Positions 2,345 through 7,637 of a stretch of DNA of 36,076 nucleotides are shown piece after piece; position 1 is the first letter of the stretch, and each line of letters opens with the position of its first letter. This stretch comes from Deltaproteobacteria bacterium (GTDB lineage: Bacteria > Myxococcota > Myxococcia > Myxococcales > SZAS-1): the NCBI GenBank assembly GCA_018266075.1, contig JAFEBB010000076.1, positions 1-36,076 on the forward strand. The letters are read 5' to 3'. Position numbers and translations under genes: made by a program. The notes under the pieces are model-generated. The model was not told where the DNA came from. It was given only the letters and a program-made list of their open reading frames with translations, and did not search any database.

Positions 2345-4432
2345 CTAAGGCGCCATTGAGCATGTGCCGCCGTCATAGTTGGTCCACATTCGTTGGAGGA
2401 AAAAGTGTTCTAAGTTTAGGGACACATTCCACTGATTCACATTCGGCGTCCCACCCCCGGTTCCCGGCGCAGGGTCCCAATCGAATTGGCATGAGTCTGC
2501 GTTCTCATGACCTGGGGGGGCTCCATTTGGTGCGTTCTCCGGAATTCCTCCATCGGTCATGTAGTGAATCGTCCATGCCGAGTCCGTCCAACTACTCTGC
2601 CGAGGCGGCGCACCCGGGTCAGTAATCATTTCAATGAGTTCATGGTCGATCCAATTGACCATCCCGTCGCCAGCAGCACCCCCGCCATCCGGGTATCCGT
2701 TCGGACCCTGGCTTTGATACATCTGGCAGAGTCCGGTACTCGGATTCGGGCACGACTCGGTGTCTCCAACCCAAAGCCAGTGCAGCTGAATGGGATACGG
2801 GATGCCCGTAGGATAAAAGGAAACGTCGTCGTGCCAGCCGCATTGATAGTTACCAAGGACGACAGCCCCGCATTCCCAACCGTAGTAGACATTGTCCCCC
2901 GTGATCACGACATACACGCCATTGGGATCGACTGGCAGCGCGCCCGCATCCAAGGTTTGAAGGAGCGCATTTGGTAACACTGGCTCCAGATCGGTGATCG
3001 TCGAAGACACCGTGCCCGAATAGATCGCGACTCCGCCATACTCGACATCGCTACCAACTACGTCTCCGCGAAGGTCGTTGTACTCGTTCAAGATCGCACC
3101 ATAGTTCGAACCGCGCAACGCATTCAGGTAGAGGTCAATGACGTCAAAATCAGCTGCAGACACGTGGCCATACTCAAGAACGTAGACCTTGATCGTGCCA
3201 GCCATCACGTAGGAGCCGTCATACCCAATGCCGTTGGGCAACCCGTTGGTGAGATCGTTCCAGACGCGGTGGGGCACTGCCAAGATCTGCCAGTTTGGGG
3301 CGGACTCCGTTGACGTGGTACTCGACACTTCATTCCAGTGGTAACCGCTACCATTATTGAAGTCGAGCTCCACGCCCGTGAGCTGGCCGGTAGGCACGTC
3401 GTGAAAAGCGTACTGCATGACACCGCACACTGTTCCGGGTCCGAACGCGGTGCAGGTGTGAGGATGTTCCCAACTACCGGTGAGCAGTTCTACCTCGGAC
3501 CCGTAGTCGGCAGGGCCGACCGTCGCCATCGTGTTGAAGGCTCCATTGTGTAAATTGGTGTGTATGAACACTCCGGCGTCCGGAGTGTCGCCATACATGA
3601 ATGGTCGTACGTCGGCGTAATCTGCATACCCGTCATGGTCGAAGTCGCCCACGGCCATGAGCCACCGAGGTCCGGCGGCGCTGGTGCCGGATGCAATGAC
3701 ACCTGTCCCGCTTATTGGCGAGCCGAACCCACCATCATGATAGTTCTTGTAAACCCAGAACTGCCCCGTCGGGCGATAGTGCTCGACGATGTCTGCGAAT
3801 CCGTCCCCGTCAAAGTCTCCCGCCATGAATTCCCAACCTGGGTCGCCGTTGGGGCTTTGGGTGGCATGGGTGTATCCGTGGCCCCAGTTGGTACCCGATG
3901 GTGCGAATCCGCCATCGCCGTAGTTCTGATGAACCCAAAACTCTCCGCTCGGAAGCCAGTGGTCGATGAAGTCCGCGCGGCCGTTTGCGCTGCTAAAAGA
4001 CCCAACCAGTTGCTCCCATCCGCCAGTGGTGTTGGAGGACGCCGTCCCATTCTGTGAAGGTCGCCCGCCCCAATTCGCGGAGCTCCAGGTCGGTGGAGAG
4101 GTGTTCGCATTGAGATGGACCCAGAACTTGCCTGTGTCCCAAGACTCGTCGCTGTAGTCGATAAGCCCGTCGCCATCGTAGTCTGCTGCAGTGCCGACTC
4201 CGAACACCATGAATGGCGCGGCTCCGCCGTCGGGATAGGTGATGCGAGAAGTCGGGGTCGAAAGACTCGGAACCAACACGACGCTGCCAGCATCAGTCAT
4301 CGACTCGACCGCGATCGCGCTTGGTGGGGGCCCGCCGTCCGAGAATTGTGTCGAGGCGACGACAGGAGCAGGAAGAACGACGGACATGGCGCCAACAATC
4401 AGCGCGCCAAATCGACCGTAGCTGCTGGCCAT
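2345..4432 (-). CDS. Secreted FG-GAP repeat protein with EXORDIUM-like C-terminal domain
   Basis: The 695-aa product starts with a signal peptide (about residues 1-26). Residues 30-330 hold FG-GAP/VCBS-type repeats with Ca-binding-style motifs DYDGDGLIDY (about 81), DFDGDGFADI (about 206) and DFDHDGYADY (about 261), suggesting a beta-propeller. From about residue 400 the sequence resembles the phosphate-induced protein 1/EXORDIUM family: YDGSYVMAGTIKVYVLEYG, then GVYVVITGDNV, CGWH, WLWVGDTESCP and GDGMVNW. It then has HELIEMITDP (H597, E598, E601), where plant EXORDIUM proteins read roughly SLLAGTVTNP, followed by NADSC and WTNYDGGTCS near the end. The HExxE pattern suggests a metal site and possibly peptidase ancestry (inference). 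Base composition is clearly less GC-rich than neighbouring genes, hinting at transfer. It is divergent from the lipoprotein gene at 4558. Confidence 0.85.
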   Translation of the reverse strand: MASSYGRFGALIVGAMSVVLPAPVVASTQFSDGGPPPSAIAVESMTDAGSVVLVPSLSTPTSRITYPDGGAAPFMVFGVGTAADYDGDGLIDYSDESWDTGKFWVHLNANTSPPTWSSANWGGRPSQNGTASSNTTGGWEQLVGSFSSANGRADFIDHWLPSGEFWVHQNYGDGGFAPSGTNWGHGYTHATQSPNGDPGWEFMAGDFDGDGFADIVEHYRPTGQFWVYKNYHDGGFGSPISGTGVIASGTSAAGPRWLMAVGDFDHDGYADYADVRPFMYGDTPDAGVFIHTNLHNGAFNTMATVGPADYGSEVELLTGSWEHPHTCTAFGPGTVCGVMQYAFHDVPTGQLTGVELDFNNGSGYHWNEVSSTTSTESAPNWQILAVPHRVWNDLTNGLPNGIGYDGSYVMAGTIKVYVLEYGHVSAADFDVIDLYLNALRGSNYGAILNEYNDLRGDVVGSDVEYGGVAIYSGTVSSTITDLEPVLPNALLQTLDAGALPVDPNGVYVVITGDNVYYGWECGAVVLGNYQCGWHDDVSFYPTGIPYPIQLHWLWVGDTESCPNPSTGLCQMYQSQGPNGYPDGGGAAGDGMVNWIDHELIEMITDPGAPPRQSSWTDSAWTIHYMTDGGIPENAPNGAPPGHENADSCQFDWDPAPGTGGGTPNVNQWNVSLNLEHFFLQRMWTNYDGGTCSMAP

Positions 4433-4557
4433 GTTAGGCTCCCGGGAATAGCAGGTAAGACGTCGATTCTGAGGATCGATGCGATGCTAGGTGATCTATG
4501 GTTTTGGCGTCGAGTAAACATTCCGGCACCCGTGAAGTGCGTGTAGGACACAGGGCC
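4433..4557. promoter_or_regulatory. Divergent intergenic region
   Basis: This short AT-richer region separates the EXORDIUM-like gene (minus) from the small lipoprotein gene (plus) and must hold both starts of transcription. I cannot place convincing -35/-10 pairs. Codons upstream of 4558 in the lipoprotein frame may be translated if ATG 4498 is used. Confidence 0.35.
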
Positions 4558-5016
4558 ATGTCCGCCCTCTGTCTGCTGGGGCTCATCGTTGGAGTTGCTG
4601 CATGTAGCGGGAGCCAACCCGGTTCAAGCGGAACTGGAGCAACAACTTCGGCCGGGACGGCAGGAGGCACCGCGGGCTCGTCCTCGAGCGGGACGGCGGG
4701 AGGCACCGCGGGCTCGTCCTCGAGCGGGACGAGCACAATGGGGGGAAGTGGTGCAGCGTCCGGATCTTCCACAGGAGGTTCAAGCGCAAGTACAAGCGGT
4801 TCCGGCTCCACCACGTGCAGCCCCAATCCTGACTTCCACGTGATTGGCGCACCTGCCGATGCCGGGTGGGCAGACGGCGGAGATCTTCCGATCGATGCCT
4901 GCGTCGAAGGTTGCCAAGCACTCAACCCAAATCAGGTCATTTGGTGCCACGCCGTTCCTGCGGATGGGGGACTTGAGTGGGACTACGACTGCCAATTCAT
5001 AGCCGAGTGCGGTTAG
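4558..5016 (+). CDS. Small Cys-rich lipoprotein with Gly/Ser/Thr linker
   Basis: The 152-aa product has a short hydrophobic signal and a lipobox (VGVAAC), so it should be lipid-anchored. I prefer ATG 4558, which puts a normal signal peptide at the N-terminus; ATG 4498 would add 20 residues before it. After the Cys comes about 80 residues of Gly/Ser/Thr/Ala linker containing two exact protein repeats encoded by a 36-bp tandem duplication. The C-terminal 60 residues form a small domain with six Cys (CSPNPDF, ACVEGC, WCHAV, DCQF, ECG), probably disulphide-bonded in the periplasm or at the cell surface. I do not recognise this domain. Its composition resembles the adjacent low-GC gene at 2345-4432, so the two may have arrived together. 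Confidence 0.75.
   Translation: MSALCLLGLIVGVAACSGSQPGSSGTGATTSAGTAGGTAGSSSSGTAGGTAGSSSSGTSTMGGSGAASGSSTGGSSASTSGSGSTTCSPNPDFHVIGAPADAGWADGGDLPIDACVEGCQALNPNQVIWCHAVPADGGLEWDYDCQFIAECG
4654..4725 (+). repeat. 36-bp tandem duplication inside the lipoprotein linker
   Basis: Two 36-bp units (4654-4689 and 4690-4725) differ at a single base. They keep the reading frame and encode two copies of GTAGGTAGSSSS-type linker. This looks like a recent slippage or recombination event and a likely site of length variation. Confidence 0.9.
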
Positions 5017-6221: not shown

Positions 6222-7637
6222 ATGGGGCGGGCGATGGGGCTCGCCGCGGCGTTGTGCCTGGCAGTGGGCACGGCCGCGGCGCGAACGCCCCCGAGCAAGC
6301 AAGCGAGCGATGACCGGCCCTGGACCGAGCGGGCCCTGCTCCCGCCCTCGCGCGCGACGGGACCCGACGTCGCAGGGCTCGTCCGCGCCACCAGCCGCTG
6401 CGTGGTGAGCATCACCACCCACGAGCCGAGCCGCCCCGATGCCGACGACGGCGGCGAAGCGGCGCCCGCGGTGGCCGGCGCGCTGCGTCCACCGCAGCTC
6501 GAGAAGGGCGTGGGCTCGGGCTTCATCGTCCGCGAGGACGGCCTGGTGCTCACCAACGCGCACGTGGTGCAGGGCGCGCGCGCCATCCACGTGACCGTCG
6601 CCGACCAGGGCGTGCCCCAGAAGCTCCCCGCAGAGCTGGTGGGCATGGACGCCGCCGCCGACGTGGCCCTCCTCCGCGTGCGCGCGGGCCGCAAGCTGCC
6701 CGTGCTCCCTCTCGGAGAGAGCGACGCCATCCAGGTCGGCCAGTGGGTGGTCGCGCAGGGCAGCCCGTTCGGGCTGGCGCACACGGTGAGCGTGGGCGTG
6801 GTGTCGTACGTGGGCCGCAGCGACGTCACCCCCGAAGGCTTCTCCGGCTTCCGCGACTACCTGCAGACCGACGCCGCCATCAACCCCGGCAGCTCCGGCG
6901 GGCCGCTCTGCGATCTGCGCGGCCGGGTGGTGGGCATCGTGGACGCCGTGAATCCCACGGGACAAGGCATCGCCTTCGCCATGCCCATCGACATGGCCAA
7001 GCGGGTGCTGCCCTCGCTGCTGGCGTCGGGCGGCGTGCGGCCGAGCTGGTTGGGCCTCAAGGTCGAGGACCTGAGCGCCGACCTCGCCCGCGCCTTCCAC
7101 GTGCGCGGCGCAGACGGCGTGGTGGTCTCCGAGCTCGAGGCGGAGGGGCCCGCTGCCAAGGCGGGGCTGCGTCCGGGAGACGTGGTCGTCCGCTTCGACG
7201 GGCACCCGGTGCGCCACGCCCAGCACCTGCGCTGGCTGGTGGAGGCCGCGCCGGTGGACCGGCCGGTGAAGATCTGGCTGCTGCGAAAAGGAAGGCTGGT
7301 TTCACTGCCCGTGAAACCCACGCCTGCGCCGGCCCCGCTCGTCGAGGCGCAGGAGCTGGCGGCGCTGGGGGCGCAGGTGGCGCAGCTCGATGTGCCCACC
7401 GCGCGCTCCGTCGGACTCGCATTGCCCAACGGCGCGCGGGTGATGACGGTGCGCGACGACGGTCCGGCGCGCGCGGCGGGCATCCGCGAAGGCGACGTGG
7501 TGACCCGCGCGGGTGGGCTCGAGGTGGCCGAGCCGGACGATCTCGCGCGGGCGCTGATGGCCGCGGGCGAGCAGCCGATGCCGCTCACGATCCGCCGAGG
7601 CTCGCACGTGCTGCACCTGCAGCTCCACGCGCGCTGA
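6222..7637 (+). CDS. HtrA/DegP-type periplasmic serine protease with two PDZ domains
   Basis: The 471-aa product has an N-terminal signal (about 1-20) and a trypsin-like protease domain (about 50-265) with the complete catalytic triad: H114 in TNAHVV, D147 in AADVAL and S225 in NPGSSGGPL. The motif GIAFAMPIDMAKRV closes the domain. Two PDZ domains follow, about 275-370 (GLRPGDVVVRFDG) and 385-470 (GIREGDVVTRAGG), the DegP/DegQ arrangement and length. Such enzymes degrade or refold damaged envelope proteins, and the PDZ domains bind C-termini of clients. ATG 6222 is used; an in-frame ATG at 6234 is an alternative. I withhold a gene symbol because degP, degQ and degS-like paralogues cannot be told apart here. 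It sits upstream of two other envelope genes. Confidence 0.93.
   Translation: MGRAMGLAAALCLAVGTAAARTPPSKQASDDRPWTERALLPPSRATGPDVAGLVRATSRCVVSITTHEPSRPDADDGGEAAPAVAGALRPPQLEKGVGSGFIVREDGLVLTNAHVVQGARAIHVTVADQGVPQKLPAELVGMDAAADVALLRVRAGRKLPVLPLGESDAIQVGQWVVAQGSPFGLAHTVSVGVVSYVGRSDVTPEGFSGFRDYLQTDAAINPGSSGGPLCDLRGRVVGIVDAVNPTGQGIAFAMPIDMAKRVLPSLLASGGVRPSWLGLKVEDLSADLARAFHVRGADGVVVSELEAEGPAAKAGLRPGDVVVRFDGHPVRHAQHLRWLVEAAPVDRPVKIWLLRKGRLVSLPVKPTPAPAPLVEAQELAALGAQVAQLDVPTARSVGLALPNGARVMTVRDDGPARAAGIREGDVVTRAGGLEVAEPDDLARALMAAGEQPMPLTIRRGSHVLHLQLHAR

Follow-up and report, generated by a model that had tools for sequence, protein, structure and literature searches.

A secreted protein encoded in the window (the whole stretch of DNA that was analysed, 36,076 nucleotides) ends in a domain of the EXORDIUM/Phi_1 family (PF04674) that is probably a metallo-hydrolase of the zincin fold, related to the metzincins and equipped with an HExxE site, and plant EXORDIUM would then be a branch of this bacterial family. 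Domain architecture, conservation and predicted fold are established here; metal binding, the set of ligands, catalysis and substrate are what we infer. Work on the EXO/EXL proteins of plants as growth effectors goes back to at least 2009, and their biochemical role was still called unknown or enigmatic in 2026 (PMC2661892, PMC13103426), the 2026 AGP/EXL paper describing EXO/EXL function as largely enigmatic (PMC13103426). According to the 2009 EXO paper, EXO is dissimilar to all proteins of known function and has a single bacterial homologue, in Solibacter usitatus, with no further homologues in bacteria, archaea, fungi, animals or protists (PMC2661892). A search of the open-licence literature for a link between EXORDIUM and a metallopeptidase fold (metalloprotease, zincin, pseudoprotease, AlphaFold) found none. 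A zincin-type fold with a catalytic-looking conserved site offers specific targets for mutagenesis and an activity that can be assayed, which would be the first testable idea of function for the family, and it suggests a split among the plant members between those that keep the site and those that lack it.

The gene and the parts of its product are laid out as follows.

2345..4432, minus strand: whole coding sequence, 695 amino acids, secreted FG-GAP plus EXORDIUM/Phi_1 protein (open reading frame, ATG start, Pfam)
4439..4443, minus strand: GGGAG, likely ribosome-binding site, 6 nt 5' of the ATG (sequence; inferred)
4352..4432, minus strand: predicted signal peptide, residues 1-27, cleavage APVVAS/TQF (judged from sequence by eye)
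3263..4207, minus strand: FG-GAP repeat region, residues ~76-390, best Pfam stretch 151-216 (Pfam; repeats counted by eye)
2348..3259, minus strand: EXORDIUM/Phi_1 domain, residues 392-695, predicted metzincin-like zincin fold (Pfam, AlphaFold2, structure comparison)
2831..2842, minus strand: CGWH, residues 531-534, with H534 on the strand equivalent to the sheet edge strand (alignment, model)
2615..2644, minus strand: HELIEMITDP, residues 597-606, with H597, E598, E601 and D605 on or just past the active-site-like helix (alignment, model)
2489..2509, minus strand: HENADSC, residues 642-648, with E643 and D646 forming the E..D.C motif, candidate third ligand (alignment)
2384..2395, minus strand: Q680-x-x-W683, conserved C-terminal Q..W motif (alignment)

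The FG-GAP match at about residues 151-216 (PF01839, E 5.9e-7, 29.7 bits against a Pfam cut-off of 22.1) is accompanied there by one to FG-GAP_3 (E 1.3e-6), and about five propeller repeats can be counted by eye, three of them with an intact DxDxDG loop. PF04674 matches residues 404-606 of the whole protein with 25.1 bits (E 1.3e-5), barely above its cut-off of 25 bits, and the C-terminal 301 residues alone with 28.3 bits (E 1.4e-6). The initial annotation had proposed, from the sequence alone, a secreted fusion of an FG-GAP propeller to an EXORDIUM-like domain; both Pfam matches lie over their cut-offs, and the signal peptide is typical as judged from sequence, so that the fusion, the family membership and secretion are all borne out. 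Neither NCBIfam nor PHROGs assigned the protein to a family. Its FG-GAP N-terminus and low PF04674 score distinguish it from typical EXORDIUM/Phi_1 proteins, in which the common order of elements is YHGGP - WYG - Y.V.T - CG.H - DGM - (HE..E) - TDP/TNP - C. The fusion itself is one among several modular arrangements and not the main point of interest: in the ten fusions scanned, the partner modules carried by relatives are FG-GAP, fn3, TIG, Ig-like and CarboxypepD_reg, an assortment that fits attachment to surfaces or polymers. FG-GAP recurs among these in one Acidobacteriaceae protein, the partners otherwise varying. That protein (L058) likewise has FG-GAP repeats followed by Phi_1, but it differs in having a CarboxypepD_reg-like domain between the two and a typical Phi_1 domain (98.5 bits).

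The sequence of the window domain is too divergent to retrieve its relatives directly, and a genome scan with this domain alone returned none; a sequence search of solved structures likewise gave no significant match for it. A starting alignment of five sequences, made up of the window domain and four Phi_1 matches from genomes of the same order, detected four relatives in viral contigs and 157 in bacterial genomes, of which 80 were retained. Two peptide patterns fetched the 80 genome relatives, and because one of them contained 'HE', H597 and E598 were slightly pre-selected, while E601, D605, H534, E643 and D646 were in neither pattern of that scan. In the resulting 88-sequence alignment (A2) the window domain is about 26-36% identical to the 87 relatives across the domain, and it matches the derived profile over positions 4-247 of 248 with 195.8 bits, being itself one row of that profile. 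Alignment with undoubted bacterial Phi_1 members spans the entire domain of the window protein.

The relatives are spread over Acidobacteriota, Pseudomonadota, Myxococcota, Actinomycetota and Verrucomicrobiota. With the 88-sequence profile, more divergent members come to light in 13 of 246 genomes of the phylum of an actinobacterial relative; within the order, 23 of 145 genomes have members, and several of these genomes carry 5-9 copies. The PF04674 model itself has matches in 11 of 247 genomes of the phylum of an acidobacterial relative. Nine places in the window's own genome match the profile, about eight of them (L147-L154) in addition to the window gene, which is the only one that the Pfam model detects. 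The divergent members that were scanned have no Pfam or NCBIfam assignment, which, taken with the presence of 8-9 copies in one genome, suggests a sizeable group of probable secreted enzymes that is now unannotated. Several of L147-L154 carry Ser/Thr/Gly-rich linkers typical of surface lipoproteins, and at L006, L007, L008, L065, L079 and L142 the family genes occur as tandem pairs within a few kb. One member (L087) comes from a contig of 473 kb that IMG/VR classes as viral, which could be a huge phage or else bacterial DNA placed there in error.

The motif HELIEMITDP is present at residues 597-606 exactly as the initial annotation had it, and its conservation lends substance to the metal site suggested there. 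H597, E598 and D605 are invariant in the 88-sequence alignment and E601 is found in 87 of the sequences. In a set of 129 sequences from which plants were left out, and which includes members at only about 25-35% identity, each of these four residues occurs in at least 128 (H597 128, E598 129, E601 128, D605 128), alongside C531 (127), H534 (128), W615 (127), E643 (127), D646 (128), C648 (129) and Q680 (127). Such near-invariance across both alignments, in which the family motif reads HExxExx[TS]DP, is far beyond chance, and the bacterial form of the EXORDIUM domain carries the site. The paralogues within the window's genome, the weakest matching at 21 bits, retain HExxExxTD, [GA]YH, E[IVL][GA]D and Q..WSN while varying at the cysteines (GGYH or EGYH in place of CGWH, GDEA in place of the GDxC form). 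Since the H/E/D set persists where the cysteines vanish, the comparison marks two histidines and five carboxylates (H534, H597, E598, E601, D605, E643, D646), rather than the cysteines, as the functional core.

Neither C531 nor C648 was retained as a candidate ligand, as paralogues without one or the other still keep the H/E/D set; no conserved set pointed to a cysteine-type, serine-type or glycosidase active site. Natural single losses occur at three of the positions: L078 has Gly for E601, L127 has Asn for D605, and the second reading frame of L102 has Arg for H597. L102 and L103 adjoin in an acidobacterial genome, one copy reading CRETREAVTDP, with Arg at the first putative metal-ligand position, and the other GHEIREAVTDC; judging by the motif, the former is likely inactive.

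Structure models were obtained with AlphaFold2 for the window domain (pLDDT 79.7, pTM 0.83) and for a canonical acidobacterial member, L031 (pLDDT 96.7, pTM 0.94). The L031 model runs through strand 18-25, helix 33-44, strand 68-76, helix 86-98 and strands 108-114, 130-137 (bearing H132) and 140-147 to a helix, 168-186, that carries H179-E180-x-x-E183 and ends at T186; D187, W193 and E200-x-x-D203 follow. The histidine and the second glutamate of HExxE, equivalent to H597 and E601, lie one turn apart on this single helix. This order of elements (strand-helix-strand-helix-three strands-active helix) is that of adamalysins. Foldseek searches of the PDB placed adamalysins, ADAM17 and ADAMTS first for both models, with weak best E-values of 8e-3 (window) and 5e-2 (L031), and the leading rows for the window model are nearly all adamalysin/ADAM-type peptidases. 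VIA-align, which re-aligns Foldseek's own candidates, gave metzincins in all 50 matches listed for each model, in support of the peptidase-like character suggested initially: the best Z is 8.2 for the window model (4.4 A over 158 residues; a further match has 3.5 A over 147 residues) and 9.4 for L031 (3.5 A over 155 residues), whose match at rank 50 still has 8.2. For models that lack a clear match, the best Z is typically 7-8 and drops to 4-5 at rank 50, so the metzincin match stands above this background, though short of proof. Against viral structures, ulilysin-like and other metalloproteases are among the weak leading matches. On these models, a zincin fold with an HExxE site that departs from the canonical form is the most likely reading of the EXORDIUM domain.

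The predicted domain resembles the metzincins (adamalysin/ADAM type M12B, archaemetzincin) in fold, in the order of elements and in having an HE-bearing helix at the equivalent place. It differs from them in the motif, HExxExxTDP in place of HExxHxxGxxH/D, with the GxxH/D extension missing; no conserved Met-turn methionine was found downstream of the motif (best column 39 of 88), and sequence similarity to metzincins was not detected. In the thermolysin-type gluzincins a downstream Glu motif, ExxD or ExxxD, lies about 20 residues past HExxH. The succession of HExx[H/E] and ExxD/ExxxD is shared with that group, whose second ligand is His where Glu is the putative one here, and the E643 equivalent of L031 comes 21 residues past the histidine, close to the gluzincin spacing; no gluzincin is among the structural matches listed for L031. 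The motif of the aspzincin/deuterolysin family (M35) has been written as HEXXE (PMC7215534). M35 also requires GTxDxxYG, and residues 392-695 contain neither this nor HExxH; M35 is likewise absent from the structural matches listed.

In the mechanism that we propose, the HExxE helix would correspond to the catalytic helix of zinc peptidases, the spacing of H597, E598 and E601 reproducing that of HExxH enzymes with Glu replacing the second His. One metal ion, most likely zinc, would be bound by H597 and E601, with E598 serving as general base. E643 would be the most likely third ligand, through a gluzincin-like HExxE and ExxD pair, the alternatives being D605, which follows the helix directly, and H534, whose strand is presumed to form the edge of the sheet. 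Glu is unusual as the second metal ligand of a zincin, and the metal may for this reason be other than zinc, or structural. As a best guess, the activity would be extracellular hydrolysis of an amide or peptide bond by a secreted peptidase or amidase, which may be tethered to a surface or to its substrate by the FG-GAP repeats or, in the relatives, by the fn3, TIG or Ig-like modules. Against this explanation stand the weak Foldseek E-values, a motif that is HExxE and not HExxH, and the missing metzincin extension and downstream Met.

The domain might instead have a zincin fold whose conserved cluster of acidic residues and histidines takes up calcium, or some other metal, to stabilise the protein or to bind a ligand; it would then be a non-catalytic binding module, the FG-GAP propeller and other partners serving as further adhesion modules. 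Carboxylates make up five of the seven conserved residues, HExxE is no classical zinc-peptidase motif, the partner domains are adhesion-like, and plant members of the EXO type have apparently lost the motif yet stay conserved proteins; we nevertheless hold this to be rather unlikely, because a strict H597-E598-x-x-E601 on a peptidase-fold helix, even in barely similar paralogues, is the pattern of a catalytic helix. Still less likely, in our estimate, is a hydrolase of zincin-like fold that depends on a metal but acts on substrates other than peptide bonds, such as cell-wall glycans or polysaccharide esters or amides. Phi_1 relatives are common in soil bacteria (e.g. Acidobacteriota, Collimonas) and the plant members work in the cell wall (PMC2661892, PMC13103426), but none of the ten fusions scanned has a carbohydrate-binding partner and the structural neighbours are peptidases. 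That the metzincin likeness is a mere common alpha/beta arrangement, the fold being unrelated and the HExxE helix structural, would accord with Foldseek E-values above 0.001, low TM-scores (at most 0.5 among metzincins) and mid-range Z, but is very improbable given that two models from different starting sequences led to one superfamily across all 50 VIA matches listed, with the motif on a helix, and that the better model (L031) keeps Z above 8 at rank 50.

On the plant side, no EXORDIUM entry turned up among viral contigs, plasmids or the texts of papers, and the EXO and EXL3-type sequences compared here are authenticated by their PF04674 score alone (421.5 and 349.5 bits, respectively). EXO presumably has S, L, G and N at the positions of H597, E598, E601 and D605 and Ser at that of D646, while keeping H534 and E643; the EXL3-type sequence presumably has HELAEVVSNP...EIGDLC...FLVQW. 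Single-change probes of PF04674 from S/L/G to H/E/E altered the score by +0.7, -0.1 and -0.2 bits (Trp controls, -1.9 at the first and -3.6 at the third position), an indifference which implies that the curated family already includes both kinds. At the fourth position N is preferred over D (-3.7), and H534 (-4.4) and E643 (-3.3) are strongly expected. The bacterial profile scores the EXL3-type sequence at 172 bits against 91 for EXO, and this better match, together with HELAE, points provisionally to one plant branch that keeps the site and one that has lost it. The view that plants are without the site altogether was set aside after the Pfam column probes and then the EXL3-type sequence. The contrast originally drawn, with plants having a non-metal sequence, therefore holds for the EXO type and seems to fail for the EXL3 type, PF04674 accepting both; the initial annotation is partly supported, correct in its main thrust of a metal-site-like, peptidase-like domain and too simple in its view of plants. 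We see about an even chance that the entire EXORDIUM family has the zincin fold, with the bacterial and EXL3-type members being metal-dependent enzymes with a new HExxE site and EXO a pseudo-enzyme comparable to the inactive ADAMs. EXO, the brassinosteroid growth effector, would in that case have kept the fold and lost the metal ligands.

The third-codon-position GC of the window gene, 0.66, lies below the 0.88-0.95 of five of its paralogues in this genome, and the rows nearest to its product in a quick tree are Acidobacteriota proteins, so that recent acquisition by transfer is likely. The tree is unrooted, with a very long branch for EXO and a long one for the window protein, and no claim on the direction of descent is built on it for that reason. 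In the surroundings of the gene, a perfect inverted repeat, AGGCCGGCGCTTTCGCGCCGGCCT, at 2195-2218 on its 3' side is terminator-like and absent from the scanner's hits. A divergent reading frame at 4498-5016 encodes a lipoprotein-like product with TAGGTAGSSSSG repeats, and 6222-7637 encodes an HtrA-type serine protease with two PDZ domains, which is followed by a PEGA-domain protein and a TPR protein.
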